Shown: one piece after another, positions 6,216 to 49,592 of the stretch
How the letters are laid out: every line of letters begins with the position of its first letter
Numbering within the stretch: the stretch's first letter is position 1
Source of the DNA: Siphonodentalium dalli
Lineage: Eukaryota > Mollusca > Scaphopoda > Gadilida > Siphonodentaliidae
DNA: 64,000 bases
Direction of reading: 5' to 3'
Assembly (NCBI GenBank): GCA_032622095.1
Contig: CP136066.1
Coordinates: forward strand, 175,831,164 to 175,895,163
The notes under the pieces: generated by a model
Databases searched by the model: none
What the model saw: only the letters and a program-made list of their open reading frames with translations
Told to the model about the DNA's origin: nothing
Made by a program: the position numbers and the translations under genes

Positions 6216-8168
6216 ATGGAGTCCTTGTCACGAAGTTATAACCGGATTCTGCTGCAAAGTCATGCCAGTAGAGAAACAACACGTCTGTCGACTGATCGTT
6301 ATCAAGTTACATTAGTAGGGAGCGCCGCGAGCGGAGTTTATATTACAGGAAGCGATCGAGATATTCTGATCGAACCTCGAAACATAATAATAGATGAATC
6401 CAGCTTGAGATACCGACATGACCTCCCATGTTATGTCCGGATATCTACTGAGGGGTTAGCTGGGCTCGTACCAAGCGTTCTCTTGGGTGACGGGGAATAC
6501 GTGCTGGCTGATCCCATCAGAGACATGCGTGAAGAGATCTTTGGAGGAACTATAGAGGCTGATGGATTATCAAAGGTTGGTATGATACTCGAAGGTGGAT
6601 CCATCACAACCGACGTTGTTCCACAACTAAGAATAAGTAGAATACCACAGACAGCACGCTTATTTTCCACACGTGACCGGTCATGGCCATCGGACCACAT
6701 TATATCGCTAATTAGCTCCGGGGAATTCCACCTTGCGGCACGACCTGCTCCATCAGACCCGGACAGTGGGCACGATTTCTGTCTGTCGTTCGCTAAGGCA
6801 GAAGTCGTGCTGTTGAGAACAATGTCAGTTAACCAGATACTCAGTATAAAGCTTTTGAAAGCAATCCGACACGACATTAATTTTGGCCGGGTAGTGTTGA
6901 CGTCCTACCATCTGAAAACGTCAGCTCTCTGGCATTTCGAGCAGACGGACGCTCGATTCTGGGAAAATGACGTATCAGTAGTGGATATATTAAAGAGACT
7001 TGATCAGTATTTAAAAGGAAGATTCCTACCTCATTATTTTGTTCCTGAAATGAACTTGTTGACTGGTGTCTCGGAATCTGATCTTATATATATCCGGATA
7101 CGTCTGTGGTCTCTTCTCGGGTTGTTTATCATCACTGATGATATCGCGGGAATGACACCACACACAAGGCTGAATCTCACATGTTTTATATTTGATAATT
7201 TAAGTAGACAACTCTCTGAAACAAAGCCTGCTATCACGCAGACGGTTCATATGTCTCATATCAGGAACACCATAGAAGCAGCAGAGGTCATGTATGGAAC
7301 CGGCATTCTATCCCATGACATGAAACAACGAGTATCCGCATCTTTATTGGTGAGGTTTTCAATCCATGCAGTCAGTAGCCAGCATATAGACGAAGTTAAA
7401 TCATGTCTGACGTCAGTTAATAAGACGGTTGATCTTTGGATGTATTCTAGACAACATGAATATAGTTCATATGCCGACTTTGTTGCATATATGTCTATAA
7501 TTGTGGATTCAAATAAGGACCCTTTAAAAGATTTCTTCGTGATAACATCGACAGGTAAAAATAAAGGAGGCCGTCGTGCCGCCAGAAGAGCATTACGAAA
7601 ATCAGAAAAAATAATGAATAAATGGTTGGCTTTTGTCGATGATGTCATTACCAAGTTACAATCATACGGGAACATTGTTGCTGATCAAGTGTCACGTGAT
7701 ATCTCACACAAGTCACGTTGTGACAGCCGCATGAGCGGCAATCGATGCGAGGAAAATGTCGACCAACTTTCCTATAAAATTACCAAAGAGTTGCTAACGT
7801 TTGCATTCGATCATATTGGAAAGTTCAGTTATCCTCTCGATAATGACACTTATTCCTTCAGGCCGGAGCCAGTCGGCGACTTCGGTGGAAACATTGTCAT
7901 ATTATATGATGTTATCGAGAGAATGTTCCTCAACGTTGAGTATGCTCTCGTTATGAGCGCTCGGGCCAAGACATCTCGCGGATCATGTGATCAGACGGGA
8001 AGAATAAAGCGAACGATGAATCCTGAGAGTCTAGAATATCGATGTTACTTGGCGTTGTTAGCTTTAATCAGGGTGCTGGGTGAATTCTACATGTTGTGTT
8101 CTGTGTCAAGTGAGCATCACGGATGGAATTACTGGCCGCCACATTCCGCCGAGAGAATTGTTAGGTAA
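6216..8168 (+). CDS. Mab-21/cGAS-like nucleotidyltransferase (cGLR), copy 1
   Basis: A 650-residue single-exon ORF. The N-terminal half is a nucleotidyltransferase core: a short helix (about 5-20), the G35-S36 motif in LVGSAASG, acidic pair D47 and D49 in SDRDILIEP, and the third acidic residue D133 in TTDVVPQL. A Mab-21 helical half follows, with SFAKAEVVLL (191-200), SYHLKTSALWHFE (230-242) and LPHYFVPEMNLL (271-282). These are hallmarks of the cGAS/cGLR/Mab-21 family, which make cyclic dinucleotides after binding a nucleic acid or other ligand. With all three acidic residues kept, an active enzyme is plausible, but product and ligand cannot be read from sequence. No cGAS-type H-C-C-C zinc thumb is evident. 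Residues after about 310 match no domain I recognise; a basic patch lies at 448-465 (GKNKGGRRAARRALRK region). The start is supported by alignment with copy 2. Confidence 0.88.
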   Translation: MESLSRSYNRILLQSHASRETTRLSTDRYQVTLVGSAASGVYITGSDRDILIEPRNIIIDESSLRYRHDLPCYVRISTEGLAGLVPSVLLGDGEYVLADPIRDMREEIFGGTIEADGLSKVGMILEGGSITTDVVPQLRISRIPQTARLFSTRDRSWPSDHIISLISSGEFHLAARPAPSDPDSGHDFCLSFAKAEVVLLRTMSVNQILSIKLLKAIRHDINFGRVVLTSYHLKTSALWHFEQTDARFWENDVSVVDILKRLDQYLKGRFLPHYFVPEMNLLTGVSESDLIYIRIRLWSLLGLFIITDDIAGMTPHTRLNLTCFIFDNLSRQLSETKPAITQTVHMSHIRNTIEAAEVMYGTGILSHDMKQRVSASLLVRFSIHAVSSQHIDEVKSCLTSVNKTVDLWMYSRQHEYSSYADFVAYMSIIVDSNKDPLKDFFVITSTGKNKGGRRAARRALRKSEKIMNKWLAFVDDVITKLQSYGNIVADQVSRDISHKSRCDSRMSGNRCEENVDQLSYKITKELLTFAFDHIGKFSYPLDNDTYSFRPEPVGDFGGNIVILYDVIERMFLNVEYALVMSARAKTSRGSCDQTGRIKRTMNPESLEYRCYLALLALIRVLGEFYMLCSVSSEHHGWNYWPPHSAERIVR

Positions 8169-8712
8169 ACTTCTACGCCATTGAAGCTGAATGCGAAACA
8201 TGATCACACATAAACTCGAGGAAGGAACTAACTGTTTTCCAAGGCGACAATGTTTATACCATGCATTTGTCGATGCTGTTTAGAACATACATCATTTTGT
8301 GCAAAAAAATCAAAACAGGCTGTATATAATACAAGTGGATATGCTTCGAGTCAGAACTGTATCTTGTCAAACTCAGTGATTTTGATACTGCCCTCAGATT
8401 TACACCAGATTTGACTACCAACATTCACAGGTACCATAAATGTATATACGATTCACAGACAACCTGAATCGACAGAATCATGATATAGATTACAGAAATC
8501 AATAGAATATAAAGAATATTTTATTTCACCAGAAATTTCTTACTCATAGTATCACCCAATCAACTGGCAGTGTTTTATGTTGGTTCGAGATACCCTGTAA
8601 ATTTAATAAGGGGCATATTTCACCTTATAGAGTAACCATAGTTACCACACACACGCACACGCACACCCACTGCATCGAGTTGGACAACTATATCCATCAA
8701 CAGGTATCAAAG
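8169..8712 (+). other. 3' flank of cGLR copy 1
   Basis: The first 50 bases match the region after copy 2 (GATCACACATAAACTCG). Further homologous pieces are GTTGGTTCGA, ATACCCTGTAAAT and GAGTAACCATAGTTACCACA. Copy 2 has these pieces too, some of them duplicated. A CACACGCACAC microsatellite lies at 8650-8670. The 3' end of the transcript probably lies in here, but no clear polyadenylation site was chosen. Confidence 0.5.
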
Positions 8713-9105
8713 ATGGATGGAACTCATGTTCTCACGTTTCATGGTCCGAGAGCAAAAAAATCCTTATCTCGCAATGTGCCTATACGTTTGGCACAACTAT
8801 TGAACAAAACATCATACGATAACCAAACAACGTGCTCCCACTGCCGCGAAACATTCTCCAATCTAGTGTTGCACATGTACAACGACTTTTCCATCTTCGC
8901 TCAGGAAAGACGCAACTCATTCTGGTACTTTGTTATTGCTTGTTATATAATTGATATGTTCAATATTTTGGAAAGATTGAGTGATGAAACGTTTCTTGCG
9001 TACTGTTTTGATGGATGCATAAGCACTGCGGTTAACTTAGTTTGCAACGAAGAACAACTCTTCAGATCCTGCATTCGATTTATCTTCGAATTATGGGCGA
9101 GTTGA
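8713..9105 (+). pseudogene. 130-codon ORF, possible reverse-transcriptase C-terminal tail
   Basis: Open from ATG at 8713 and also open upstream to 8680. The middle has C-x2-C-x9-H (CSHCRETFSNLVLH), followed about ten residues on by a RRNSFW segment and LERLSDETFL. The spacing recalls the zinc-knuckle tail after the polymerase domain of some non-LTR retrotransposons. The final cysteine of that motif is missing and no polymerase lies upstream. The ATGGATGGAAC start region recurs near 50180 and 50342 after copy 2, so it belongs to the duplicated unit. It could also be an unrelated small gene. Confidence 0.3.
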
Positions 9106-10139
9106 CTCAGTTGAGTATTCTTTCATCTCCCGTCGATACGGTCTGGAGTGAATAGTTAACCTCTACATACACATATTCCGGCTTTCCCCAAGTCACTAAA
9201 TTCCGTTTAATCATTTACGTGATTTCTCAGGAATATAATTATACAGCTTATTACTATGATATAATCTAGAGGGGGGGGGGGTCTGCAAAATAATCTTCCG
9301 TATATAGGGCCGGGGTGGGTGGGTGGTCCAGTGGCCGAAAAAATAGTGCTTGTAAATATTTTCCAAAATGGGTTTTTTTTCAAACAATTTACAAGTACTG
9401 ACCATGTAATGTTGTATATAGGCATGTTAGTACCATGCTTGTTGGTATATGGCTATATATGCAGCTAAACTGACTCTTTAGCCTCAGATTTAGCAACATT
9501 CTGGATTTTACAGGATCCCGGACCACTTCACAGTGGACCACCGTAATATCGTTCAGGAAACTTATGATCAATGGAAGAAATATTTAGTAACAAAATTAAT
9601 ATATTACCCAGTTGTATACCTGAATAAAAGTAATAAAACAAATAAACTGTATCACAAATTGGATACTACATGATGAATATTCAATGATGACTAGATATCA
9701 TTAACCTGATTGTTGCATAACATGCAATTGAAAAGGGTATCTCATAAATTTCTAATGTCTGAAATACTGTCTTGTTCTGGCATGTAATCAAATTAATTCC
9801 TTCTGGTTATTTCTCATATTGAATGATTGCAAGTAATGTTAATTTGCAACAATTATCCAAATAAAACTGAATTGGTTATGATGAATGACCGTTACTGTTT
9901 ACTGCTCAGACAATCCCAACTGAAGGTGACGCTATTCTCATTGAATTTCCGAACTTTATCTTGGAGCTTTACTGCTCAACAAGACTAAACTAAAATACTA
10001 ATTGTATACTGTTATCACTTACAAATAGATGAACTGAAATAATGTGATGCATTCAGATGCATTGAGAAATGACATTCAATTCTTCATTCTGGTCTATCAC
10101 CATTCCAAACCACATCAAAATTCGACAACCGACACTTTA
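9106..10139. other. No gene seen; one G/C-rich repeat fragment
   Basis: At 9265-9360 a G-run and GGTGGGTGGGTGGTCC resemble the C/G-rich repeats at 15780, 16610 and 23800. The rest is AT-rich sequence without recognisable genes or arrays. Confidence 0.5.
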
Positions 10140-10362
10140 CTTATATTGCAAAAACGTTGTACGGACTAAATTTCATAAAGTCGAACAGGGCCCATAACTC
10201 TGGTAGGCATTGATGGTCACAACCCGTGATATTATGCATATTCGTTCCCCATTTCTGGCCCGTCACCATGCCATAGGGCATCAAAATATGACAACCGACT
10301 CTTGAGTTATAATGCAAAATGTTTGTACGGACGGACGGCTCGAAACGACAACTATATACCCG
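10140..10362. repeat. Dispersed invertebrate repeat tail
   Basis: Contains two diverged tandem copies (ATTGCAAAA, then ATAATGCAAAATGTTTGTAC) and ends in ACGGACGGACGG. Repeats with this kind of ending are common in mollusc DNA. The assignment is by style only. Confidence 0.4.
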
Positions 10363-10365
10363 CAC

Positions 10366-10690
10366 TGCCAAAAATAATTTCTTAATAAGATAAAATATCT
10401 TGAAACAAGAAAAACTATTTCCTGAAACAGGAAAATAAATCTTATTTTGGGAAATATTCCCCCCAAGTCTGCTACATCAAGAAAATTTAAGAAACTCCCA
10501 CCAGACAAGAGATAGTTTTCTCAAATAAGATAGATTTTAGTCTTGAAACAAGAAACAATTTCCTTACTAAGAAAATGACTTCAAAAATTAAATATATATT
10601 TCTTGTTTCAAGATTTTTTTTCTAAGTTAAGAAATACTTAAAGAAAATATTTCTAAACCAAGAATTAATTGTTATGTAGAAATTACTGCT
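10366..10690. repeat. TTCTTG/CAAGAA-rich element with CACTGCCAAAAAT end
   Basis: It begins CACTGCCAAAAATAATTTC and then holds many short inverted motifs such as CTTGAAACAAGAAA and TTCCTGAAACAGGAAA. A related block at 22860-23405 ends in ATTTTTGGCAG, the complement of this start. It probably belongs to a DNA transposon family with these ends. Confidence 0.55.
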
Positions 10691-10734
10691 GTATTGGAAT
10701 AACTAAAAGTCCAACGAGAGCAAAATTGTGATCA

Positions 10735-11045
10735 AAATTTTATGGTAAACATTGAAAAAGGTCCAACCAGACCAACCTGTTGATTAAATATTCTGAAAAT
10801 TCATATTCATACTTAAATATTTGAACTACATGTAATACTACAGCTATAGGATTATATAATTGTTGACAAGTCACTCACTGTAACAGTTTTGTTTACATAA
10901 CATTGGAAAAGGTCAAACCTGTTGATTAAATATTCTGAAAATGTTATTCATAGTTAAATATTTGAACTAATAATACAGCTAGAATTATATGTTTGTTGAC
11001 AAATCACTGTAACAGTTTTGTTTACATAACAATAGTTTCAACAGA
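10735..11045. repeat. Tandem repeat of about 150 bp, two copies
   Basis: CTGTTGATTAAATATTCTG, TAAATATTTGAACTA and CTGTAACAGTTTTGTTTACA occur twice in order. A third, more distant copy is at about 19560-19700. Confidence 0.7.
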
Positions 11046-11082
11046 TGTAATTTTGTTGTTGGCAATCTGTCAGTAAGTGTTT

Positions 11083-11290
11083 TTATCTATTTCTCAATGC
11101 TCTTAGGGCATGCTGACCTTTATACAATTTTAATAAAATTTTGTTTGCACAATATAGTGGGTCGCCATTGAGGAGATCTAGAGCTCCCTTGAAATCTCCA
11201 AATGGCGGTTTGCCACACCATCCCGAACTAGACAAACCTCTCTGGTGGCCCCTTGCATTGAACCTATTAATTAAACCGGTATATACCCCT
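11083..11290 (-). CDS. Unidentified ORF fragment
   Basis: The last part of a 109-codon - strand ORF lies in a less AT-rich stretch and reads like protein (GWCGKPPFGDFKGALDLLNG, ending ALRALRNR). I do not recognise a family. The upstream codons run into the 383-bp repeat array, so only this portion could be genuine. It may be a pseudogene fragment or chance. Confidence 0.15.
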
Positions 11291-11299
11291 CTTATATAA

Positions 11300-13160
11300 G
11301 GATGGAAGATGCTACCAATTTCAAACCGATGGTATTTATTCAGAGTTGACTCTCTTGTATTATGAAAGCAAGCACAATGAGGCCATGCACCTATTGTATG
11401 TTTATAACACACAAAAGACTATATAATAGCAGAATGCTAATATCTCTGATGATACAAACAATAAAATATCCAATTTATCCATAGTTGAATTTCATTTGGC
11501 TATATAGGAAAGCATACAATGTGGCTTTTATGTAGTTTCCACAAAGTATTTTAAGTAAAATATCCATCAAGTGATGTATTCTGCCTTGTCCTATATATTA
11601 AAATGCATGCAATGGTCATGAGAAATGCTTAATTTGTGGTAGAGATGTCCATCTGATAAGAAATACTGACATTTTAGGTTTGATACACCATTTCAGCCGG
11701 CTTGGCATCTTTTAAATTTGAAACCTAAGGGAATTTATTCAGCTTTGACTCTCTAAATTATGGAAGAAAGCCCAAATGAAGCCACTATGTGCATGTTAAT
11801 AACATGTATAAGGCTATATATCTCAACAGAATACATGTCTCTGATAAAATGCACAATAAAATATCCATAGTTCAATTGCATTTGTCTATAGAGGGATGCA
11901 TACAATATTGCTTTTATGTAGTTTCCACAGACTATTTTAAGTAAAATATCCATCAAATGATGTTTTCTACATAGCCTTGTATATTAAAATGCATGTAATG
12001 ACCATGGGAAATGTTTAATTCATTAGTTGATATGTCCATCTGATAAGAAATACTGACATTTGAGGTTTAAAATACCATTTCATGGGATTATGGGATCATA
12101 AATATAAAACTAAGGGAATTTCTTCAGATTTTACTCTCTAAATAATGGAAGAAAGCCCAAATGAAGCCACAATTTGCATGTTAATCACATGTATAAGGCT
12201 ATATCTCAACAGAATACACGTCTCTGATAAAATACACAATAAAATACCCATAGTTTAATTTCATTTGGCTGTAGAGGGATGCATACAATATTGCTTTTAT
12301 GTAGTTTCCACAGACTATTTTAAGTAAAATATCCATCAAATGATGTTTTCTACCTTGGTCTATATATTATAATGCATGCAGTGACCATGAGAAATGTTTA
12401 ATTTATTGGTAGAGATGTCCATCTGATAAGAAATACTGTCATTTGAGGTTTGATACACCATTTCAGCTGGCTTGGCATCTTGTAAATTTGAAATAAGGGA
12501 ATCTCTTCTGGTTTGACTCTCTAAATTATGGAAGCAAGCCCAAATGAAGCCACTATTTGCATGTTTATAACATATATAAGGCAATATCTCAACAGAATAC
12601 ATGTCTCTGGTGAAATAAACAATAAAATATCCATAGTTTAATTTATTTTGGCTACACAGGGATGCATACAATATGGCTTTTAGGTTGTTTCCACAGACTA
12701 TTTTAAGTAAAATATCCATCAAATGATGTTTTCTACCTTGTCTTGTATATTATAATGCATGCAATGACTATGAGAAATGTTTAATTTATTGGTAGAGATG
12801 TCCATCTGATAAGAAGTACTAATATTTGATGTTTGTGACATCAACTCACAGGGCCAGGCATGCTACAACTTTCAAACTAAGAGAATTTCCTCACGTTTGA
12901 CTCACTAAATGATGGAAGTTAGCCCAACTGAAGCAACTATTTGCATGTTTATAATGTATAAGGCTATATCTTTGCAGAAGGCATGTCTCTGATAATAAAA
13001 ATAATAACATGTCTATAGTTCATAGTTCAGTTGGTTAGACAGGGTGCATAAAATATGGCTTTAAGTATAGTTTTCACAAACTAGAAATTCTAGAATATCT
13101 ATAAAATGATGTAACCTGCCTTGCTGTGTATTTAAAATTCATGCAATAGCCTGATAACTG
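11300..13160. repeat. 383-bp tandem array, about five units
   Basis: GTAGTTTCCACA or a variant recurs at about 11531, 11918, 12301, 12683 and 13060, a spacing of 377 to 387 bases. Units share GGAAGAAAGCCCAAATGAAG, TAAGTAAAATATCCATC and GATGTCCATCTGATAAG. Copies differ by substitutions and small indels, with the last most diverged. ORFs on the - strand inside it are repeat artefacts. Confidence 0.9.
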
Positions 13161-13186
13161 TTCAGTTCATTGGCAAGCCTTGTAAG

Positions 13187-13252
13187 CCAGTGCATTCTTT
13201 TATATATGATACGAGGCTTCATGTGGATGACTCACATATATAAGAGAATGCT
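13187..13252. repeat. Small dispersed hairpin, copy 1
   Basis: CCAGTGCATTCTTTTATATA pairs with TATATAAGAGAATGCT across a short loop. Four related hairpins occur in the window (19346, 19426, 32209 and 32496). Confidence 0.7.
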
Positions 13253-13344
13253 CTAGCATATGGTCTGTTAAGACTTTAATGCTGCACCAGCGCAATTCCC
13301 GCCATGGTCATATATATATATGGGGGAGGCCCTTTTCACATTTA

Positions 13345-21580: not shown

Positions 21581-22250
21581 TATTCGATATCTCAAGCTGT
21601 TGCATACCGAAAAGACTTGGGCTAGTACCTGAACAGTAAACCTGCAATCTGCATGATTCATGAAACAGCTATTGAAACCATGCTGTATATACACAGAATT
21701 ACACAATTTTGTTTATGGGTTTGTTGATATGACACGAGTGCTAGCGCACAATGACGGAATGAACAGCACACCCTAGAGTTCTATCTTTCCTCAATGGCAC
21801 AAGTGCCGTATCAACAAATCCATTAATACAAGTGTCTTTCTGTGTTTATTACACATCACCCGTCCTAGAATATGTGCATTTAAAAATACAGGGTTACGAT
21901 GTTTATTAAGGCACATACAGTGCTTGTTTTGTCATGTGTGATGATTTTTTTTGCCATCGTTTGAACTGGATACTCAAATAACAGAAATTGTTATATATTT
22001 TTTTTGCAACCGACAGATTTGAGGTAACTGTTTCTATAAATATATTGAAAATCATGTGTCGGGATGTAATTATTAGCAATCAATATATTTTTTGTTGCGT
22101 ATATAGGTTTATACAATTTTAAGAGGCAGAACAAGATACAGGTACTTTGTATAGTTTCATTTCGCGAATGTACACAGTATCTTGTTTGGCCACTTGAAAT
22201 TTTAGAAACCCATAGCTGTAACGAGAAATTGTTGCTTGTATATTTAAAGT
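21581..22250. other. No gene seen
   Basis: AT-rich stretch between the hairpin and the MITE. Nothing recognised. Confidence 0.5.
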
Positions 22251-22751
22251 TTAAAGGTACGGGAGGCCTTGGCGGTGGGTATGCTGTGAAAATATTTCCA
22301 CCGGTCATAAACCGCCACAAACAGAAAGAATATTAAAATGTAGACAGACTTTGTCCGTATACAAATAAGAAATATCGCATAAACAGTATGTTATTGTCAT
22401 ATGTTTGACCATTCTTATGTAAACAAAAGCATAAAAAGGTACTTTCCTGGTGTTTGTTTATATTATGATGGTAAACATAAAGAGCGTTCATTGTTGCTGA
22501 ATTTAGATATGGAACGAATAAAGAGCATTTATATCATTTGTGTGTGATTAGCCAGTAACACTGTGCTGCCTTCTGTAACACAATCAGGCTCCTGCTTAGG
22601 TAAAATATAGTAGGTCTTTATGATAGCATGCTGTTTACGCGATGGTCATGGTATATATGAACAAAACTGTATGCGTTTTAATGTTTTTCTGTTTACGGTG
22701 ATTGAAACAAATATGAATATTTTCGACAACTAAGGCCTCCCGTGCCTTTAA
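22251..22751 (+). mobile_element. TTAA-target MITE, copy 2 (complete)
   Basis: TTAA lies at both ends with inverted repeats AGGTACGGGAGGCCTT and, read inward from the right, AGGCACGGGAGGCCTT. The interior aligns along its whole length with 59512-60003 and with 1-346 in reverse. No ORF is preserved. TTAA duplication is a piggyBac-like feature, but these ends do not look like standard piggyBac ends, so the superfamily is left open. Confidence 0.85.
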
Positions 22752-22859
22752 GCTCCCTTATTGTCTCTATTATACATTTAACAATGATATTTACAAAGAA
22801 GTTTTTATATTCAGAATAAATGTCAATTGTATATTTTAAAACACAATTGAAATTATATA

Positions 22860-25596: not shown

Positions 25597-26217
25597 CCAA
25601 GGTGGTCCACTCGGCAGAGTGCTCAGTGCATTACGCCGTCATATATAGGCTGTCGAGTCGGTAGAGTACTCAGTGCTTACGCCGTCATATATAGGATGTC
25701 CAGTCGGTAGAGCGCTCAGTGCATTACGCCGTCATATACAGGCTGTCCAGTCGGTAGAGCGCTCAGTGCATTACGCCGTCATATATAGGATGTCCAGTCG
25801 GTAGAGCGATCAGTGCATTACGCCGTCATATATAGGCCGTCCAGTCGGTAGAGCGCTCAGTGCATTACGCCGTCATATATAGGCTGTCCAGTCGGTAGAG
25901 CGATCAGTGCATTACGCCGTCATATATAGGCCGTCCAGTCGGTAGAGCGCTCAGTGCATTACGCCGTCATATATAGGCTGTCCAGTCGGTAGAGCGCTCA
26001 AGCATTACGCCGTCATATATAGGCCGTCCAGTCGGTAGAGCGCTCAGTGCATTACGCCGTCATATATAGGCCGTCCAGTCGGTAGAGCGCTCAGTGCATT
26101 ACGCCGTGATATATAGGCCGTCCAGTCGGTAGAGCGCTCAGTGCATTACGCCGTCATATATAGGCTGTCCAGTCGGTAGAGCGCTCAGTGCATTACGCAG
26201 TCATATATATATAGGCC
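25597..26217 (+). repeat. 47-bp tandem array with a tRNA A-box-like core
   Basis: About thirteen units, each with CCAGTCGGTAGAGCGCTCAG followed by TGCATTACGCCGTCATATA. The core resembles the D-arm/A-box region of tRNAs (AGCTCAGTCGGTAGAGC). No B-box or tRNA body lies within the unit. It may derive from the head of a tRNA-type SINE. Confidence 0.85.
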
Positions 26218-34470: not shown

Positions 34471-35690
34471 CTCAAGATAATATATTATATACCCATAACT
34501 ATAGAATATAAAATATATTGGTTTCACGAATGACCAACTCATAATTCCGTTAAAACAACTAATCCTTTCAAAGTATTACAACTATTTACGACTTATCACT
34601 GAAAGTTCATGCATCTCACCAGAATTCATGCATCTCACCAGAATTCCATACACCTTTTACCGAACTCGGCCTCCTGGTCGCAGTTCGACTTTTAATCCGT
34701 CCCAAAAATGTCCATTTCTATAAATAAAATGCCCATGGCCCATGTATACAAAGAATCAGCGAAACATTATACAGGCGGAGCGCGAAATAACTAATTGATA
34801 TAACTAGAAACAAGAGCCATTACTCTATTAAGATATAGCGGCGATGTTCTTTGTGGTGCTGTCGCACATGTTATACAATCACATACCAAACAATTGTCAA
34901 AAGCCACTAATACACCGCTATGTTACCGACGATTAAGGCTGGACACCGGATGAAATATGTACGAAGAGCGACAAATATGAGCGCGAACTAATAATGATAA
35001 TAAATGTCCACATGTAAGTGTTTGCGCGACTGCTTGGTTCTCGTTCTATCAATGAGCACCGTCATTGTCACGTGATTATGTTTTCAGATGTTGCTGGAAT
35101 GAATCATTCATCAACGTGCATCGCTCCATTTAAATCACCAATTGGATTTCCCATTTGTTTGAATAAAAATGTCAGTATACGAAAATCTCCATGCATGTTC
35201 CATAAAGTATTTCAGCCAGTTTACAAGTGTTTAAAATACAAAATCGTGGATATAATTGAGACTATACTATTCTTCTTTCTCGCTAAAATCTATTGGCAAC
35301 GCAACTGAGTTCAACCAGAATTATTATATGTAGTTGTTTGAGTTGCACTGGCCTCATTCAGCCTACATGCAGTTGGTTGACTTGCTAAGATTTCAATTTA
35401 TTAATCTAGAAGTGAGAGTAGTATATTTTTCCACAATCAACTTCTACCAAACTATATTGGTTTAGAAACAAGATGAATATAATTTACATAGACATCAAAC
35501 ATAGGACATACATAATGCTATGAATATTCTATTTTAAAAGTGGACAACTTGGGTCAGAATTCGTTCTTGATTCCATGCATCCGCGGGTGAGGTTTCTATT
35601 CCTATATGTTAAAAAAAAAATTCCAAGAGTTTTTGTCAGGAAAACAAGACGCTGTGGCAAATGGGTAAAAGTAATTCGATGAGAATCAAT
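34471..35690. other. No gene seen
   Basis: Contains a duplicated CATGCATCTCACCAGAATTC (34610-34645) and a stretch similar to 13706 (ACACCTTTTACCGAACTCGG). The rest is unremarkable. Confidence 0.5.
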
Positions 35691-38399
35691 GAGACGTACA
35701 CAACACTTAATAAGAGATAACTCATCACAGTTATAATAACGAGAATCAATGAGACATACATAATACTTAATACGAGAAAAGTCGGCACAGCTATGATAAT
35801 GAGAATCAATGAGACCTACACAATACTTAATAAAAGATAACTCGTCACAATTATGATAATGAGAATCAATGAGATCTACACAATACTTAATCAAAGATAA
35901 CTCGTCACAATTATGATAATGAGAATCAATGAGACATACATAATACTTAATAAAAGATAACTCGTCACAATTATGATAATGAAAATCAATGAGACCTACA
36001 CAATATTTAATAAAAGATAACTCATCACAATTATGATAATGAGAATCAATGATACCTACACAATATTTAATAAGAGATAACTCATCACAGTTATGATAAT
36101 GAGAATCAATGAGACATACATAATACTTAATAAAAGATAACTCGTCACAATTATGATAATGAGAATCAATGAGACATAAACAATACTCAATAAAAGAAAA
36201 CTCGTCACAATTATAATAATGGGAATCAATGAGACCTACACAATACTTAATAAGAGATAACTCATCACAATTATGATAATGAGAATCAATGAGACCTACA
36301 CAATACTTAATAAGAGATAACTCATCACAATTATGATAATGATAATCAATGATACATACATAATAATTAATAAGAGATAACTCGTAACAATTATGATAAT
36401 GAGAATCAATGAGACCTACACAATACTTAATAAGAGATAACTCATCACAATTATAATAATGAGAATCAATGAGACCTACACAATACTTAATAAGAGATAA
36501 CTCATCACAATTATAATAATGAGAATCAATGAGACATACACAATACTTAATAAGAGATAACTCATCACAATTATGATAATGATAATCAATGAGACATACA
36601 TAATAATTAATAAGAGATAATTCGTAACAATTAGGATAATGAGAATCATTGAGACCTACACAATACTTAATAAGAGATAACTCATCACAATTATGATATG
36701 AGAATCAATGAGACCTACACAATAACTAATAAGAGATAACTAATCACAATTATAATGATAATAAATGAGACCCACACAATACTTAATAAGATAATAACTC
36801 GTCACAATTATGATAATGATAATTAATGAGACCTACACAATACTTAATAAGAGATAACTCATCACAATTATGATATGAGAATCAATGAGACCTACACAAT
36901 AACTAATAAGAGATAACTCATCACAATTATAATGATAATAAATGAGACCCACACAATACTTAATAAGAGAAAAGTCGTCACAATTATGATAATGATAATC
37001 AATGAGATCTACATAATACTTAATAAGAGATAACTCATCACAATTATAATAATGAGAATCAATGAGACCTACACAATACTTAATAAGAGATAACTCATCA
37101 CAATTATAATAATGAGAATCAATGAGACCTACACAATACTTAATAAGAGATAACTCGTCACAATTATGATAATGATAATCAATGAGACATACATAACAAT
37201 TAATAAGAGATAATTCGTAACAATTAGGATAATGAGAATCATTGAGACCTACACAATACTTAATAAGAGATAACTCATCACAATTATGATATGAGAATCA
37301 ATGAGACCTACACAATAACTAATAAGAGATAACTCATCACAATTATAATGATAATAAATGAGACCCACACAATACTTAATAAGATAATAACTCGTCACAA
37401 TTATGATAATGAGAATTAATGAGACCTACACAATACTTAATAAGAGATAACTCATCACAATTATGATATGAGAATCAATGAGACCTACACAATAACTAAT
37501 AAGAGATAACTCATCACAATTATAATGATAATAAATGAGACCCACACAATACTTAATAAGAGAAAAGTCGTCACAATTATGATAATGATAATCAATGAGA
37601 TCTACATAATACTTAATAAGAGATAACTCATCACAATTATAATAATGAGAATCAATGAGACCTACACAATACTTAATAAGAGATAACTCATCACAATTAT
37701 AATAATGAGAATCAATGAGACCTACACAATGCTATATAAGAGATAACTCATCACAGTTATACTAATGAGAATCAATGAGACCTACACAATACTTGGTAGA
37801 AGATAACTTATCACAATTATGATGATGAAAATCAATGAGACCTACTTAATATTTAATAAGAGATAACTCATCACACCCATGACAATGAAAATCAATGATA
37901 TATACACAATAATTAATAAGTGATAACTCATCACAATTATGACAATGAGAATCAATGAGTCCCACACAATAATTAATAAAAGATAACTCGTCACAATTAT
38001 GATAATGAGAATCAATGAGACCCACATAATACTTAATAAGAGATAACTCATCACAATTAGGATAATGAGAATCAATGAGACCTACACAGTGCTTAATAAA
38101 AGATAACTCGTCATAATTATGATAATGAGAATCAATGAGACATACACAATACTTAATAAGAGATAACTCGTCACAATTATGAAAATCAGAATCAATGAGA
38201 TCTACACAATAGTTAATAAAAGAAAACTCGTAACAATTATAATAATGGGAATCAATGAGACCAACACAATACTTATTAAGAGATAACTCGTCACAATTAT
38301 GATAATGTGAATCAATGGGATCCAATCAATACTTAATAAGAGATAACTCATCACATTTATGATAATGAGAATCAATGAGTCCTACACAATATATATATA
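35691..38399. repeat. 60-bp satellite, block B (about 45 units)
   Basis: Same unit as 347-1735. A variant cluster with TTCGTAACAATTAGGATAAT at 36621 recurs at 37214 (offset 593), and shortened units with TTATGATATGAGAATCAA recur at 36691 and 36868 (offset 177). These nested higher-order duplications show recent local expansion. The block is split from 45688-46245 by the Helitron pair. Confidence 0.95.
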
Positions 38400-38420: not shown

Positions 38421-38461
<41 letters not shown>

Positions 38462-41590: not shown

Positions 41591-43902
41591 AGTTCCAAAA
41601 TATATAATAGCTAAAATACACGACAGATAACTCTATATATCCCGTCTACGCTCACGCTTTACGAAGTCCAGCGCAATGAAATTTCACTATTGTTAACCGG
41701 CTGTTGTCTCATGGAAATGTCAGGCCTGTAAAACGAGCTGGCGACTTTCTGAATTTTTATAGGCGTAACACAGCCTATTGGATAAGCATAGAAAGGCAGT
41801 GTAATTCGTCGAAATTAATGACAAGTGGTGCAAATTTCAACTTAATGCATAGTTTGTTGTGTTTATCTTTGTATACTTTCACAAAATTGGCAGTTTGAAC
41901 CATGTACCATGGCAAATATTAGCAATAGTTTTACCCGTATAGAACGATTAATGAGGATAGAACCGACTCGATCAGGAGAGAACCCAAACAATAATCAAAA
42001 TTCGCGGTTCTTGTCGTTGTTATGACTCGCACAGTGAATTTTTCGTTATTAACACGCTCATTGGTGCCACAGATTGTTATGGGATCGAAAATAACTAATC
42101 GAATTATCACCTGGATGCCTCAAAATTGCGTTTTAACTGTCAAAAAGTCGTGAAAATGTATAATTTCGATCAGCAAGAACCGTCACAAATCAGGCAAGAA
42201 CCATCACAAACCGGCGATAGAACGATTTCCGATGTAACAGTTCCTACACAGTGCTATCAAAGTGGTGTTGGAAATAGGCGCTAAATTAATGTGTCAGTTC
42301 AGGTTCAGTGTGAATTTAGGTAACGAATGTTGATTTTATCGCGGAAGTGCATGTATAGTGGGGTGTAGAGTGAAGACTCGAACGTTCTACCGTCGTTGGG
42401 AATGGGTGGATGTAGCGGGGTGCAGAGTCAAGACTCAAACGTTCATCGTTGGGAATGGGTGCTAATATGGTATTTTAATTTGCCAGTTGGGTTTGAACAT
42501 AAACATGTGTATTGAGTGTGGAATCGAATGAGTACCGATATACACGGAAGATGGCGAATGGACACAGTCTGACCTCCCGCCAGTGGGTAGCGTGAACTCA
42601 GTAAATTCACCGGAACTCAGTTAGAAAAATCACATTCCCGGGACAGGCCTAATAATAGGGCACACACAGTGTAAACAATACTGCCAACACTAATTAATGC
42701 TCTGTTAATCTTTCGGTTGAGTGTAAATCTGATAAAAGAATAAATGTTTAAAAGATCAAAATGTGCGCGAAGCGCACGCAGTTTAAATCCATATATAATG
42801 TGCGCAAAGCTCACTGCAGACCCCCCCGCTATATAAAGGTTCCGAATTGAGCCTGTTTCAGTTAGAATAGATAAAGTAAAATATCTTGATTGTTGCGTTC
42901 CATATGTGCATGCATATACGTGGGTTGGGGAGATGATGGTGGGGGCAAAAATACAGATTTATTGAAATAAAATGTTCATAAAAATGGGCCGCGCAGTTCA
43001 GGGCGTGTGATCATTAGGCTGCATGCTGAATACAGGTTCCAAAGGGGTCCGTTTAAAATGTGATGCAAGCTCCCTATATCTGCGCGAAGCTCACGCAGTT
43101 TAAGATCATATAATGTGCGCGAAGCGCAGAAAGGGGCTGTAGGCCCCTCCCCCGCTAAATAAAGTCTCCCGAATTTAGCCTGTTTCAGTATAGATAAAGT
43201 AAACTATTTTGATTGTTGCCTTCCATATGTGCATGCATATACATGGGTTGGGGAGATGGGGGTGGGGGTAAAAATACAGTTTTATTGAAATAAAGTGTTC
43301 ATACAAAGGGGCCGCGCAGTGCAGGCGTGTGCTCATTAGGCGGCATGCTGAATACAGGTTCCAAGGGGGTCCGTTCAAAACGTGAAGCAAGCTCCCGAAT
43401 GAAGGTTCCTGAATTGAGTATGTTTCAGTTGGTGCATAGTAGCATTTAAATAATATACTGATTTTGTTTCGTTCAAAATGTGCATGCGCACATGTGGACT
43501 TGGTATGTAGAAATACAATTTTAGTGAAATAAAGTGTTCATACAAATGGGCCGCGCAGTGCATGCGTGTGCTCATTAGGCGGCATGCTGAATACAGGTTC
43601 CAAAGGGGATCCGTTCAAAACGTGAAGTAAGCTCCCGAATGAAGGTTCCTGAATTGAGTATGCTTCAGTTGGTGCATAGTAAATAATTTTAAATAATATA
43701 CTGATTTTGTTACGTTCAATATGTGCATGCGCATATGTGGACTGGGCATGTAGAATTACAGTTTAGTAAAATAAAGTGTTCCAACTCGCATCCAGTAACA
43801 AAAAAGAGAAGCATGACCATTCCATGTGTCCATGAACGCGAACACTAGAAAATAACAAAGAACATTTATATACCCGTCATTTTGTGACGGGCAACCCCCT
43901 AG

Positions 43903-45687
43903 TATATATATACAACCCGTCGTCTGTGTGTGTGTATGTGAGGGTGTATCTGTGTGTGTGTGTGTGTGTATAACTCGGTCACGCTTTTGGCGCGTTTATA
44001 ACTTTTTAACCATGCGTCCAATGTGGCCCAAATTTGTACCACGGCCTATAGTGTGTCATAAAATATATAGTGTGTCACCAAATTTCACGCCGATTGGTCC
44101 AAGCAAACCTGAGATCTAACATGGCCCCCAAATGCAGTATCTGCACTCAAGTAGACACTATTTCTTATGACGTTTGTCCAAATGACGTCATTGACGTCGA
44201 ACGCAGTACAACACTTGCTTTGCTATTGTAGGCGAAACTTCCATGCGCTCAACCAAAGCGTTGTTGGAAATAAGCGCTAAATTAATGTGTCAGTTCAAGT
44301 TCATTGTGAATTTAGATAACGAATGTTGATTTTGACGCGGAAGTACATGTATAGTGGGGTGTAGTCAAGACTCGAACGTTCTACCGCCGTTGGGAATGGG
44401 TGGATGTAGTGGGTGCAGAGTCAAGACTCGAACGTTCGTCGTTGGGCATGGGTTGGTATTTTAATTTGCCAGTTGGTTTTAAACAAAAGTAAATAATACT
44501 GTCTTTGATACGAAAGTTGTGCATTGAATGTAGTATCGAAGGAGTACCGGTATACACGGAAGATGGCGAATGGACAGTCTGGCCTCCCGCCAGTGGGTAC
44601 CGTGAACTCAGTAAATTCGCCAAACTGAGTTAGAAAAATCACATTCCCGGGACAGGCCTAATAATAGGGCATACAGTGTAAACAATACTGCGACGCTAAT
44701 TAATGTTCTTTTAATATTTCGGTTGAGCGCAAATCTGATAAAAGAATAAATGTTTAAAAGATCACAATGTGCGCGAAGCGCACGCAGTTTAAATTCATAT
44801 AATGTGCGCGAAGCTTACTAAGGAGCTGCAGACCCCTCCCCCGCTAAATAAAGGTTCCGAATAGAGCCTGTTTCAGTTAGTAGGCCCTATAGATAAAGTA
44901 AAATATCTTGATTGTTGCGTTCCATATGTGCATGCATATACGTGTGTTGGGGAGATGATGGTGGGGGCAAAAATACAGTTTTATTGAAATAAAGTGTTCA
45001 TACAAATGGCCCGCGCAGTGCAGGGCGTGTGATCATTAGGCTGCATGCTGAATACAGGTTCCAAAGGGGGTCCGTTTAAAATGTGCTGCAAGCTCCCTAT
45101 GTGTGCGCGAAGCTCACACCGTTTAAGGTCATATAATGTGCGCGATGCGCAGAAAGGGTTGTAGACCCCTCCCCGCTAAATAAAGTCTCCCGAATTGAGC
45201 CTGTTTCAGTAGGCCTATAGATAAAGTACAATATTTTGATTGTTGCGTTCCATATGTGCATGCATACACATGGGTTGGGGAGATGTGGGTGGGGGTAAAA
45301 AATACAATTTTATTGAAAAGTGTTCATACCAATGGATCGCACAGTGCAGGCGTATGATAATTAGGCGGCATGCGGAATACAGGTTCCAAAGTGGGTCCGT
45401 TCAAAATGTGCAACAAGCTCCCGAATAAAGGCTCCTGAATTGAGTATGTTTCAGTTGGTGCATTGTAGTATTTAAATAATATACCGATTTTGTTTCGTTC
45501 AATATGTGCATGCGCATATGTAGACTGGGTGTGTAGAAATACAGTTTTAGTGAAATAAAGTGTTCCAACGAGCATAAAGTAACAAACAAAGAGAAGCATG
45601 ACCATTCCATGTGTCCATGAAAGCGGACACTAGAAAATAACAAAGAACATTTATATACCCGTCATTTAGTGACGGGCAACACCCTAG
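43903..45687 (+). mobile_element. Helitron B, 1.8 kb, directly after Helitron A
   Basis: It starts at the base after the CTAG of Helitron A with TATATATATACAACCCGTCG and ends with the same hairpin and CTAG at 45684-45687, followed by T. Its body aligns with Helitron A without the hAT-like insert. It contains the same internal units of about 300 bp with GTGCGCGAAGCGCAC. No Rep/helicase is encoded. Confidence 0.8.
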
Positions 45688-46245
45688 TAAATAATAAAAG
45701 ACAACTCGTCACAATTATGATAATGAGAATTAATGAGACCAACACAATAATTAATAAATGATTACTCGTCACAATTATGATACTGGGAATCAATGAGACC
45801 TACACAATACTTAATAAGAGATAACTCATCACAATTATGATAATGAGAATCAATGAGACCTACACAGTACTTAATAAGAGATAACTCATCACAATTATGA
45901 TAGTGGGAATCAATGAGACCTACACAAATCTTACTGAGAGATTACTCGTCACAATTATAATAATGAGAATCAATGAGACCTACACAATACTTAATAAGAG
46001 ATAACTCAACACAATTATGATAATGAGAATCAATGAGACCTACACAATACTTAATAAGAGATAACTCAACAAAATTATGATAATGAGAATCAATGAGACC
46101 TACACAATAATTAATAAAAGATAACTCGTCACAATTATGATAATGAGAATTAATGAGACCTACACAATAATTAATAAAAGATATCTCGTCACAATTATGA
46201 TATTGAGAATCAATGAGACATACGCAACACTTAATACGAGAGAAG
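45688..46245. repeat. 60-bp satellite, block C (about 9 units)
   Basis: Continuation of block B on the far side of the Helitrons. The last unit runs into the cGLR copy 2 flank in the same way that block A runs into the copy 1 flank (GAGAGAAGTA). Confidence 0.92.
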
Positions 46246-46689
46246 TAGGAGAAGAACAAAATGGATACATATGCTTTTTGAAACAATTACTGTCTGATGA
46301 AACCAGAAGTATCTAACCAGTGCAGCTAGTCACGCGATGGTATACAGTCTAATATATCACACCCCATACATGTTAATATGCAGTATGCAGTTCACATTTG
46401 AAACCACGTCTGTTTTACAGCATCTGATCGTATTGGTGCCTGAGAACGGTGAAGTTAAAGATAATTTTCATGTTAACAAAGTTTAGAAAATGGGGTTATA
46501 ATTTCCAACAGGTCGATGGTTCTTCAATATATATTCACAGTAATCGATAGTACTAAATTAAAAAAATAAATTACAGACATATATTATATATACTGATTAT
46601 CCCACCCCGATTCATAAAAGACCATCGTTAACACCCTTAAGTAATCTGATGATATGAAATTAGAGATGAGTAGGAAACATATATACACT
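46246..46689. other. Upstream flank of cGLR copy 2
   Basis: Aligns with 1740-1811 plus 5451-6000, apart from missing pieces. The TAA at 46314-46316 is the empty site of the Harbinger-like insertion. Confidence 0.8.
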
Positions 46690-46714
46690 ATTTACAACAT
46701 AGTCATCTTCATCG

Positions 46715-46746
<32 letters not shown>

Positions 46747-47400
46747 GTCATCATCATCGTCATCATCATCATTGTCAACTTAATCAACACAATAATCGCC
46801 ATCTGTATCATGCTAATCGTCATCATTATCATCATCATCCATCATCATCATCCTCATCATCATAATCATAATCACCATAATCATAATCAACATCATCATC
46901 ATCATCAGCATCACCATCGTCGTCTACGTTGTCATCACCACCATCATCATCGGCAGAACCCGCCATCGGCATTATCGTCATTGTCATCGCCAATATCACC
47001 ACTATCCTGCAGTAGTCATCGTCATCACCATCATCATCGTCTTCGTCGTGGTCGCTGCCATCATCGTCCTCAACTATCTCCATCAGGACCATCGGCGTCA
47101 TCAACACACGTCGATCGATCATCGTCATCATCATCATCATCAGCAGCAGGAGCCGAAGCATCGTCATCATCATAATCATCACCATGCATCATCATCTTTA
47201 TCATCACCACTATCATTCAATCATCATCAATGTCAACGTACTTGCCATTTCATGCATCACCATCGTCCTCATCTTAATCATCGCCATCATCGTCATCGTC
47301 GTTATCATCATCTTTGTTATCATCATCGTTTTTGTCATCGTCATTATTATCGTCATCGAGGTCATAATCCTCGATATCATCACCGTCGTTATTAGTCGAT
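46690..47400. repeat. CAT/ATG trinucleotide repeat region
   Basis: About 700 bases of imperfect CAT/ATC repeats with CGT and CAC variants. ORFs of up to 173 codons in several frames (poly-Ile, poly-His, poly-Ser or Asp-rich) are artefacts of this repeat. It lies just upstream of the inferred 3' splice site of copy 2 and is absent at copy 1. Confidence 0.9.
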
Positions 47401-47457
47401 CCTTTGCAGTCCTATGTTAACATCCAAATATCATCGTTATATTCATTTTTGTTTCAG

Positions 47458-47603
47458 AAAGACGACATGTTATTTATTTCCCACTCACGTGATCTGAAAA
47501 CAGTATTGGATGTCCGACATTGACAGGTGTACTAATACTGACACCATCGTCTTAAAATTGACACACCAAGGGGTCGTCAGAGTAAAGTATCCATTTACCA
47601 ATT
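47458..47603 (+). promoter_or_regulatory. 5' UTR of cGLR copy 2
   Basis: Follows TTTTTGTTTCAG, the inferred 3' splice site. It matches 6082-6215 apart from a short insert near 47560. Confidence 0.5.
47467..47523 (+). CDS. Conserved upstream ORF, 18 codons, copy 2
   Basis: It begins MLFISHSRDL and ends DVRH, the same length and frame as 6091-6147. The stop lies 80 bases before the main ATG. Confidence 0.4.
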   Translation: MLFISHSRDLKTVLDVRH

Positions 47604-49592
47604 ATGGCGTCCTCGTCACGAAGTCTGTGCAGTGAGGACTCACATGAGCTATCTCTACGTTATAAACGGATTCTGCTGCAACATCATATCAGTAGACGTG
47701 CGGCACGTCGGTCGACTGATCGTTATAAAACGACATTAGTAGGGAGCGCCGCGAGCGGAATTGACACTACAAGAAGTGATGTAGATATTCTGTTCGAACC
47801 TCGAAACATAATAATAGATGAATCCAGTTTGAGATACCGACATGACCTCCCGTGTTATGTCCGGATATCTACTGAGGGATTAGCTGGTCTCGTACCAAAC
47901 GTCATCTTGGGTGACGGGAAATACGTGCTGGCTGATCCCATCAGAGACATGTGTGAAGAGATCTTTGGACAAACTAACGATGCTGATGGATTATCAAAGG
48001 TTGGTAAGGTATTCAATGTGCTACACATCACCAGCGACGCTGTTCCACAACTACGAATCAGTGGTATTCCACAGACAGCACGCTTATTTTCCACACGCGA
48101 CCGGTCATGGCCATCAGACGATATTATATCGATAATTAGTACCGGGGAATTCCACCTTGCGGCACGACCTGCTCCATCAGACCCGGACAGCGAGCACGAT
48201 TTCTGTCTGTCGTTCGCTAAGGCAGAAGTCGTGCTGTTGAGAACAATGTCAGTTAACCAGAAACTCAGTATAAAGCTTTTGAAGATAATCGGACGCGTCG
48301 TCGATTTTGGCCGGGGAGTGTTGACGTCCTACCATCTGAAGACGTCAGCTCTCTGGCATTTCGAGCAGACGGACGCTCCATTCTGGGAAAATGACATATC
48401 AGTAGTGGCTATATTAAAGAGACTTGATCAGTATTTAAAAGAAAGATTCCTGCCTCATTATTTTGTTCCTGAAATGAACTTGTTGACTGGTGTCTCGGAA
48501 TCTGATCTGATATACCTCCGCAGGCGTCTGTGGTCTCTTCTCGGGTTGTTTATCGTCACTGATGATATCGCGGGAATGACATCAGACACAAGGATGTGGC
48601 TCGCTTGTTTTGTCAGTAACTGTTGTCATCTCTTTGAAACCAACCAGAACAATACGCAGACGGGTCATATGTCTAATATCGGGAACATACTCGAGGCAGC
48701 AGAGGTCATGTATGGAATCGGGATTGTATCCCATAATTTCATGAAACATCGAATATCCGCATCTGTAGTGACGAGGATCCCAACCTGTGCAGTCAGACGC
48801 CACTATGTCGACGAAGTTAAATCATTGCTTCTGCCATTTAATAAGACGGTTGATCTTTGGATTCGTTCTAGACAATTTGACTATTTTGGATTTGACCAAT
48901 TTGTTGACGCTTTGTCTGACATCATGACTTCGACTGCGGAACCTTTAGAAGAGTTCTTCGTGATCAGATCGGCAGGTAAAAATAAAGGGGGCCGTCGTGC
49001 TGTACAAATATTGCGAAAACCAGAAATTATAATGAATAAATGGTTAGATTTCATCGATGATATCATTACCAAGTTTCAACGATACGGGAACATTGTTGCC
49101 GACCAAGTTTTACGTGGTATGTCACATAACTCACGTGGTGACAGCCGAGTAAGCAGCAATCTGTGCGAGGAAAACATCTACAAAGTTCTTAATAAAATTA
49201 CCAAAGAGTTGCTAACGTTTGCAGTCGGGCATATTGAAACTTTCAGCTATCCTCTCGATAATAATGACAACTATTCATTCAGGCCGGTGCTAGTCAGCGA
49301 CTGTCGGGCAAACAATTTCATAATACATGATGTTATCGATAGACTTTTCCTTAACGTCGAGTACGCTCTCGTTACGAGCGGTCGGATCAAGGCATCTGGT
49401 GGATCAGGTGATCAGAAGGGAAGAATAATGCGAACGATGAATCCTGAGAGTCCAGAATATCGATGTTACTCGGCGCTCATATGTTTGTGCAAGGTGATTA
49501 ATCAATTCGACGTGTTGTGTTCAGTGTCAGTTGAGCAACAAACTTGGATGGAATTCATTGCCGCCACATTCCGCCGAGAGCATTGTTCGTAA
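47604..49592 (+). CDS. Mab-21/cGAS-like nucleotidyltransferase (cGLR), copy 2
   Basis: A 662-residue single-exon ORF, paralogue of 6216-8168. It keeps G47-S48, D59 and D61 (SDVDILFEP) and D145 (TSDAVPQL), the Mab-21 segments SFAKAEVVLL and SYHLKTSALWHFE, and LPHYFVPEMNLL. It has twelve extra residues near the N-terminus (a 36-base in-frame difference after MASSSRS). The first 320 or so residues are very close to copy 1; the C-terminal half differs much more but keeps KGGRR and the end region. With all three acidic residues kept, it could be active. Ligand, product and partners are unknown, and the sequence divergence could mean different ligand preference. Confidence 0.88.
   Translation: MASSSRSLCSEDSHELSLRYKRILLQHHISRRAARRSTDRYKTTLVGSAASGIDTTRSDVDILFEPRNIIIDESSLRYRHDLPCYVRISTEGLAGLVPNVILGDGKYVLADPIRDMCEEIFGQTNDADGLSKVGKVFNVLHITSDAVPQLRISGIPQTARLFSTRDRSWPSDDIISIISTGEFHLAARPAPSDPDSEHDFCLSFAKAEVVLLRTMSVNQKLSIKLLKIIGRVVDFGRGVLTSYHLKTSALWHFEQTDAPFWENDISVVAILKRLDQYLKERFLPHYFVPEMNLLTGVSESDLIYLRRRLWSLLGLFIVTDDIAGMTSDTRMWLACFVSNCCHLFETNQNNTQTGHMSNIGNILEAAEVMYGIGIVSHNFMKHRISASVVTRIPTCAVRRHYVDEVKSLLLPFNKTVDLWIRSRQFDYFGFDQFVDALSDIMTSTAEPLEEFFVIRSAGKNKGGRRAVQILRKPEIIMNKWLDFIDDIITKFQRYGNIVADQVLRGMSHNSRGDSRVSSNLCEENIYKVLNKITKELLTFAVGHIETFSYPLDNNDNYSFRPVLVSDCRANNFIIHDVIDRLFLNVEYALVTSGRIKASGGSGDQKGRIMRTMNPESPEYRCYSALICLCKVINQFDVLCSVSVEQQTWMEFIAATFRREHCS

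Follow-up and report, generated by a model that had tools for sequence, protein, structure and literature searches.

A pair of Mab-21/cGAS-like genes with a long, fast-diverging C-terminal extension

The cGAS family consists of enzymes that, in some animals, produce small signal molecules when an infection is sensed. Two related open frames lie on the same strand of a 64-kb window, i.e. the whole stretch of DNA analysed here, and the question is whether they are working members of this family, and what they might do. The two copies are real and probably functional paralogues of a known family that is hugely expanded in some animals, and a tail of about 345 residues is the unusual part of these otherwise ordinary members.

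Gene pair, flanking DNA and open frames

The original prediction described two full-length paralogues with an intron-free coding part, and both frames were recovered exactly where it had placed them (Table 1). The proteins are 71% identical across 636 aligned columns. The pair had also been called tandem; two related copies do share a strand, but their coding parts are separated by 39,436 bases and a third copy was not found within the 64-kb window (tblastn, E<=1; all seven matches fall inside the two copies). With a spacing of 39 kb the two genes are not an array. As to STING in the window, 20 further open frames out of a list of 73 (a list that includes both genes) were scanned, and none of these 20 had a Pfam match above cut-off.

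Table 1. Coordinates of the two genes, their parts and their surroundings in the window
Feature	Position	Strand	Remark
Copy 1, Mab-21/cGAS-like gene, single coding exon	6216..8168	+	650 aa
Copy 2, Mab-21/cGAS-like gene, single coding exon	47604..49592	+	662 aa
Copy 1 core (nucleotidyltransferase half and Mab-21_C helical bundle)	6216..7127	+	residues 1-304
Copy 2 core	47604..48551	+	residues 1-316
Copy 1 C-terminal extension, 346 aa	7128..8165	+	without known domain
Copy 2 C-terminal extension, 346 aa	48552..49589	+	without known domain
Splice-acceptor-like AG, copy 1, TTATTTTCAG / AAAGACGACATG	6080..6081	+	conserved in both copies
Splice-acceptor-like AG, copy 2, TTGTTTCAG / AAAGACGACATG	47456..47457	+	conserved in both copies
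Upstream ORF, 18 codons, putative leader of copy 1	6091..6147	+	conserved in copy 2
Upstream ORF, 18 codons, putative leader of copy 2	47467..47523	+	conserved in copy 1
Duplicated block around copy 1	5746..8723	+	homology, gapped, extends past both coding ends
Duplicated block around copy 2	46389..50192	+	homology, gapped, extends past both coding ends

A putative intron in the 5'-UTR would end at the acceptor-like AG, so that the coding part would form one exon. The homology between the copies runs past this site in the upstream direction and past the stop codon in the downstream direction, and we therefore prefer a DNA-level duplication that included the flanking DNA and reject a retrocopy origin. 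A stretch bearing a TCA microsatellite, from about 46648 to 47414 in the block around copy 2, has no counterpart in copy 1. A bacterial, phage or viral origin was rejected, as scans of genome_contigs, viral_contigs and phages confirmed no relative; the first two scans used two and six short peptide patterns that would miss distant relatives. The family itself and the animal proteins that appear in the PDB search point to an animal origin.

The open frames are kept by selection. Chance is excluded as an explanation because the remaining five frames of each coding sequence contain 19-58 stops, because random substitution simulated at the 341 sites never left a frame free of stops (0/4000 for each copy; mean 12.6 stops in copy 1 and 11.7 in copy 2), and because the five gaps in the aligned coding part, which extends to about codon 634, all have lengths divisible by three (36, 6, 3, 3 and 3 nt). 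When the drift was confined to a single lineage (170 changes), the mean was 6.9 or 6.3 stops, and about 0.1% of the 4000 runs per copy were stop-free. Beyond the aligned part, a 4-nt difference at 8119 places the final 13 or so residues of the two proteins in different frames.

Family membership and the putative catalytic motif

Both copies belong to the Mab-21/cGAS-like family, an assignment that the profile matches make firm. The membership was examined with the Pfam models PF03281 and PF20266 at their curated gathering cut-offs, and both Mab-21 domains were above the cut-off in both copies, in agreement with what had been predicted: Mab-21_C at 1.2e-13 and 3.1e-13 and the Mab-21 nucleotidyltransferase domain at 5.4e-6 and 3e-5 in copies 1 and 2, respectively, the PF03281 match of copy 2 passing barely (24.6 vs 24.1 bits). 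Very similar values were obtained with the cores, whose boundaries were set by eye where the profile matches end (Mab-21_C 6e-14 and Mab-21 2.1e-6 in copy 1; 1.3e-13 and 1.3e-5 in copy 2). The best match in the PDB is cGAS-like receptor 1 (8gjy), at 1.9e-9, or 6.6e-10 with the core of copy 2 and 1.2e-11 by profile search. It is followed by MB21D2 (9e-8), another cGAS-like receptor 1 entry (8gjw, 3.2e-5) and Mab-21-like 1 (4.2e-5).

The N-terminal part of the core is less well covered. The best match to the Pfam Mab-21 profile begins at position 121 or 125 of 197, leaving some 119 leading profile positions outside it in both copies, and the N-terminal part by itself gave nothing beyond chance matches in the PDB. 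The stretch from GS to DxD is matched in register, below cut-off, by general nucleotidyltransferase profiles (PF22600, 6.4e-4, in copy 2; PF01909, 4.2e-3, in copy 1). Since the AlphaFold model of copy 2, built from an alignment of the two copies only, is poor (pLDDT 30.6, too low for a fold search), what can be said about the fold around GS comes from the motif and from weak profile matches. The same stretch of copy 2 also gave weak matches to PADLOC PDC-S09 models (best E = 0.003) and to the NCBIfam MntA antitoxin (E = 0.16), both of which agree with the general nucleotidyltransferase motif.

The motif itself is as the prediction had it, with GS and three acidic residues at the same spacing: G35/S36, D47, D49 and D133 in copy 1, and G47/S48, D59, D61 and D145 in copy 2, with 10 residues between the serine and the first aspartate and 83 between the second and the third in both. 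The third aspartate aligns with an Asp of 8gjw (IDVDLVPAI) and with one of 8gjy (SVDLTL). The copies differ between the first two acids, where copy 1 has Arg48 (D-R-D) and copy 2 has Val60 (D-V-D). In the methods wording of a survey of cGAS-like receptors (cGLRs), the pattern is G[S/G] with an [E/D]h[E/D] X50-90 [E/D] triad (PMC9980059); copy 2 conforms to it (GS, D-V-D, 83 residues, D), and copy 1 has the GS and the three aspartates without the hydrophobic middle residue. The results section of the same survey gives a stricter form, h[QT]GS [X8-20] [DE]h[DE]h [X50-90] h[DE]h (PMC9980059). Neither copy has it, as both read V-G-S in place of [QT]-G-S and carry T or S before the third aspartate, and copy 1 departs further with its D-R-D; we therefore do not claim the cGLR label in the strict sense. 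As to the proposal that both proteins could be active, the conserved GS and acids speak for it and the lack of the stricter form in either copy speaks against it. The case is weaker for copy 1 because Arg48 occupies a position that is hydrophobic in the published pattern. This arginine may impair copy 1, and copy 2 is the stronger of the two as a candidate enzyme.

The C-terminal extension and its divergence

The C-terminal half had been predicted to match no known domain, and this is what we found: Pfam gave no match above cut-off in either copy, and in copy 2 no PDB chain was matched by sequence. Only three library models reached the tail at all. Two are weak matches in copy 1, i.e. PADLOC PDC-M10B (E = 0.007, residues 319-406) and phrog_31855 (E = 0.027, residues 373-444), and since neither recurs in copy 2 we read both as chance. 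The third is a Xin repeat (E = 0.12, copy 2), which was the single match to be weighed for a tail of TPR or ankyrin repeats such as has been reported for some cGLRs, and this possibility was rejected with nothing above the Pfam cut-off. A fusion of several cGLRs, in which the tail would be a decayed second nucleotidyltransferase, was rejected as well: the best match of core against tail has E = 0.46, and blastp found no internal repeat in the tail. Hydropathy over 19 residues peaks at 1.9 and 1.7 close to the two C-terminal ends, which we do not take as a membrane span. The tail was helix-rich in the AlphaFold model of copy 2, which was discarded as evidence given its pLDDT of 30.6.

The two halves diverge at different rates. 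Residues differ between the copies at 54/304 positions of the core (18%) vs 141/343 of the tail (41%; Fisher p = 8e-11). The dN/dS ratio between the copies is about 1, with no significant departure from 1 in any of eight overlapping partitions, and a value near 1 would also fit proteins under loose constraint. Codons 401-450 have an omega of 2.8, and with p = 0.10 against omega 1 we do not claim positive selection there. Gene conversion of the core was considered in view of its lower dS (NG86, 0.15 for codons 1-310 vs 0.28 for codons 311-650), yet fourfold sites do not differ significantly (10/103 in codons 51-310 vs 13/81 in codons 311-650, Fisher p = 0.26; codons 1-50, with 1/15, were left out), and it was not retained.

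Proposed function and comparison with known systems

We hold with moderate confidence that the two genes are Mab-21/cGAS-like paralogues, derived from a DNA duplication that carried its flanks along, which most likely work like cGLRs. In each protein the nucleotidyltransferase core would span residues 1 to about 310, and the extension of about 345 residues would come after it. Once a trigger from a microbe or a virus is bound, the core would link nucleotides into a cyclic dinucleotide, and this product would signal to a receptor, either STING or one like it. The tail, which changes fast, might serve trigger recognition, complex formation or control of the enzyme. To our knowledge, trigger and product are not known for most cGAS-like receptors. 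We speculate, and only tentatively, that the tail is a sensor or partner domain not described before, fused to a catalytically competent core, and that pathogens drive its diversification while the enzyme remains unchanged. If so, duplication would yield receptors that differ in specificity and share one output. Two paralogues whose cores are conserved and whose additional regions diverge fast would offer a handle on how cGLRs gain new specificities. For now, they enlarge an already large known family by two members, the tail of which is unexplained.

A different role is conceivable, albeit unlikely. The proteins could be non-catalytic Mab21 adaptors that keep the nucleotidyltransferase fold and enhance a kinase of the IKKepsilon/TBK1 type through protein-protein contacts, for which the C-terminal half would be the interacting part. 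There is a published example, as the shrimp proteins LvMab21-1 to -3 are described as binding neither dsDNA nor dsRNA and synthesizing no cGAMP, and as activating IKKepsilon instead (PMC12928593). The long extra region, the D-R-D of copy 1 and the departures of both copies from the strict motif would agree with such a role, but GS and the three acids are kept at equal spacing despite 29% amino acid divergence, and conservation is stronger in the core than in the tail.

It is even less probable that function is being lost in one of the two, presumably copy 1, which would persist as a decoy or without enzyme activity while copy 2 is active. Arg48 within the acid-x-acid strand, the dN/dS near 1 and the frame difference over the last 13 or so residues, whichever copy carries the derived state, are consistent with this; against it, there are zero stops where 170 changes would be expected to bring 6.9 or 6.3, and the copies stay in frame with each other up to about codon 635. 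Mab-21-like developmental proteins without an immune role are a very improbable reading, for although the PDB search did match Mab-21-like 1 (4.2e-5), both 8gjy and MB21D2 score better and 8gjw scores about the same, and duplication with rapid divergence (71% identity, dN/dS near 1) would be ill-suited to a conserved developmental regulator.

It remains to compare the favoured cGLR-like proteins with known systems. Vertebrate-type cGAS carries a zinc thumb of the His-Cys-Cys-Cys type. Unlike it, copy 2 lacks a Cys-rich thumb: residues 213-241, which we take to be the expected place, contain neither Cys nor His. The profile match to vertebrate cGAS, located in the Mab-21_C region, is weak and at E of about 2 not significant by sequence. 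MB21D2 (PDB 7lt1) matches copy 2 at residues 143-311, a match limited to the second half of the core. The shrimp proteins LvMab21-1 to -3 are likewise invertebrate Mab21 proteins, described as lacking the zinc ribbon, and one of them (1,042 aa) also far exceeds the length of the core (PMC12928593). They are said to lack the canonical ligand-recognition residues, whereas our two copies have GS and the three acids, a comparison made by description (PMC12928593).

Another close parallel is with the cGLRs, which according to the survey have thousands of members in animals, including 15 new active ones reconstituted there; certain bivalves and corals have very many copies (PMC9980059). Like 8gjy and 8gjw, both copies combine the Mab-21 core and the Mab-21_C helical bundle with GS and three acids, the third in register. 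They differ from the published pattern in the valine before GS (both copies) and in the D-R-D (copy 1), and they carry the C-terminal extension of about 345 residues, whereas 87% of the cGLRs surveyed are given as single enzymes without appended signalling domains (PMC9980059).

Two paralogous genes and their family

Seven closed, ATG-started open frames of at least 150 codons are found in the window, and the longest two, on the same strand, encode the proteins called here copy 1 and copy 2 (see table). The two are 71% identical across 636 aligned columns, which bears out the paralogous pair of the original prediction; the "tandem family" amounts, however, to a pair of genes with 39 kb between them. 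A tblastn of the window with both proteins placed all seven rows at E<=1 inside the two genes and so revealed neither a further copy nor a fragment of one.

The catalytic residues, said to be intact, are literally so, as GS and three Asp are present in both copies at identical spacing. The last of these three lines up with an Asp in 8gjw and 8gjy that, going by the family motif, would be catalytic in those proteins. As motif filters we used a shorter and a longer pattern for cGAS-like receptors (cGLRs) from a cGLR survey (PMC9980059). Copy 2 conforms to the shorter pattern, while copy 1 departs from it at a single residue, the non-catalytic Arg48 (CGA; GTA, Val, in copy 2), and both depart from the longer one at the residues preceding GS and the third Asp. 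The proposal that both could be active therefore agrees with the catalytic residues, but the odds are unequal: given Arg48, predicted activity is less probable for copy 1 than for copy 2.

The profile check against Mab-21 was positive, with both Pfam domains above curated cut-offs in both copies: Mab-21_C (1.2e-13 in copy 1, 3.1e-13 in copy 2) and the Mab-21 nucleotidyltransferase (5.4e-6 and, barely, 3e-5). Among PDB chains, copy 2 is best matched by cGAS-like receptor 1 (8gjy, 1.9e-9; 1.2e-11 with a two-sequence profile) and MB21D2 (9e-8), followed by cGAS-like receptor 1 (8gjw, 3.2e-5) and Mab-21-like 1 (4.2e-5). The Pfam and PDB matches start around residue 128 in copy 1 and around 142 in copy 2, and they stop near 291-313. 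For the N-terminal ~120 residues, which include GS and two of the three acids, the matches are to general nucleotidyltransferase profiles only, below cut-off and with the motif in register, and the N-terminal part of copy 2 alone gave chance rows only against PDB. Since the published cGLR filters are matched only in part, the pair is filed, on sequence grounds, as Mab-21/cGAS-like and not as cGLR in the strict sense.

Features of the window
Feature	Position	Remark
Copy 1	6216-8168	650 aa
Copy 2	47604-49592	662 aa
GS and three Asp, copy 1	residues 35-36/47/49/133	
GS and three Asp, copy 2	residues 47-48/59/61/145	
Homologous block, copy 1	~5746-8723	gapped
Homologous block, copy 2	~46389-50192	gapped; interrupted upstream of copy 2 by TCA microsatellite stretch
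Splice-acceptor-like AG, copy 1	6080-6081	conserved context; 135 nt upstream of start codon
Splice-acceptor-like AG, copy 2	47456-47457	conserved context; 147 nt upstream of start codon
Upstream ORF	6091-6147; 47467-47523	18 codons
~500-bp element	22250-22752; 59501-60004	90% mutual identity
~500-bp element, partial inverted copy	1-346	
60-bp minisatellite, one unit	343-1736; 35679-38391; 45692-46241	
~2-kb inverted array, ~165-bp repeats	2941-4919	listed arms 83-99% complementary; ~1.3 kb upstream of copy 1
47-bp tandem array	25605-26209	~13 copies
1.3-kb direct duplication	42258-43539; 44254-45565	88% identity; ~2 kb upstream of copy 2
79-bp tandem array	60054-61100	after element copy at 59501

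Putative leader, reading frame and surrounding repeats

In each copy the acceptor-like AG would fit a putative leader joined by splicing to one exon that holds the whole coding part. Between AG and start codon both copies keep an upstream ORF (14 of 18 residues identical) that could throttle translation of both receptors. Additional upstream ATGs occur in both putative leaders.

When random substitution was simulated to the observed divergence, copy 1 gained 12.6 stops on average and copy 2 gained 11.7; stop-free outcomes were 0/4000 per copy (~0.1% with half the changes on one lineage). Up to codon ~634 the coding parts are separated by five gaps, each a multiple of three in length; the last residues of the two proteins differ because of two further gaps, one of 4 nt at 8119 and one of 1 nt at 8163, the latter adjoining the stop. 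Pairwise omega for the whole coding part is 0.98; the core (codons 1-304) has 0.77 and the C-terminal tail (305-650) 1.07, and in no case among eight overlapping partitions does it depart significantly from 1. NG86 gives 0.92 for the whole, 0.71 for codons 1-310 and 1.01 for 311-650. Fewer residues have changed in the core (54/304) than in the tail (141/343; p = 8e-11). The kept frames and an omega near 1 would fit a functional protein that is diversifying rapidly, a reading that two sequences do not separate from loose constraint.

The ~500-bp element, whose inverted ends read TTAAAGGTACGGGAGGCCTT / AAGGCCTCCCGTGCCTTTAA in the 22250-22752 copy, is a predicted MITE-like transposon. A 60-bp array follows its piece at 1-346. 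Two of the three places of the 60-bp minisatellite precede receptor copies 1 and 2, so this array may have travelled along with the gene duplication. The unit of the 47-bp array holds a tRNA-like stretch, GTCGGTAGAGCGC; ARAGORN and Rfam (gathering thresholds) reported nothing over the window.

The tail, the predicted role and the place of the pair beside cGAS-like receptors

The C-terminal half had been described as matching no known domain, and indeed Pfam gave nothing above cut-off for the tails of both copies (residues ~305-650 and ~317-662), and PDB gave no match for that of copy 2. Repeats or convincing likeness to the core were looked for in both tails and none were seen. Two weak rows, PADLOC PDC-M10B (E = 0.007) and phrog_31855 (E = 0.027), fell in the tail of copy 1 and had no equivalent in copy 2. 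A structure model from the two-sequence alignment reached pLDDT 30.6 and pTM 0.23, too low for use.

From family knowledge, the copies would be trigger-dependent synthases of a nucleotide second messenger that would act on STING or another receptor downstream, and we consider this predicted role likely. The strongest rival is that they are non-catalytic adaptors, because three shrimp Mab21 proteins, according to PMC12928593, neither bind nucleic acid nor work through cGAMP, and act on IKKepsilon instead.

Of the cGLRs surveyed in PMC9980059, 87% lack any appended signalling domain, and in some of them TPR repeats, ankyrin repeats or more than one cGLR unit occur; the tail of our pair is by sequence none of these three. 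No description of such a tail was seen in the sections consulted of PMC9980059 and PMC12928593 or in the opening lines of further abstracts. The survey counts 3,020 cGLRs whose active sites are putative, and single bivalve genomes can hold >200; the pair is therefore two more of an already known kind, adding two paralogues to that family.
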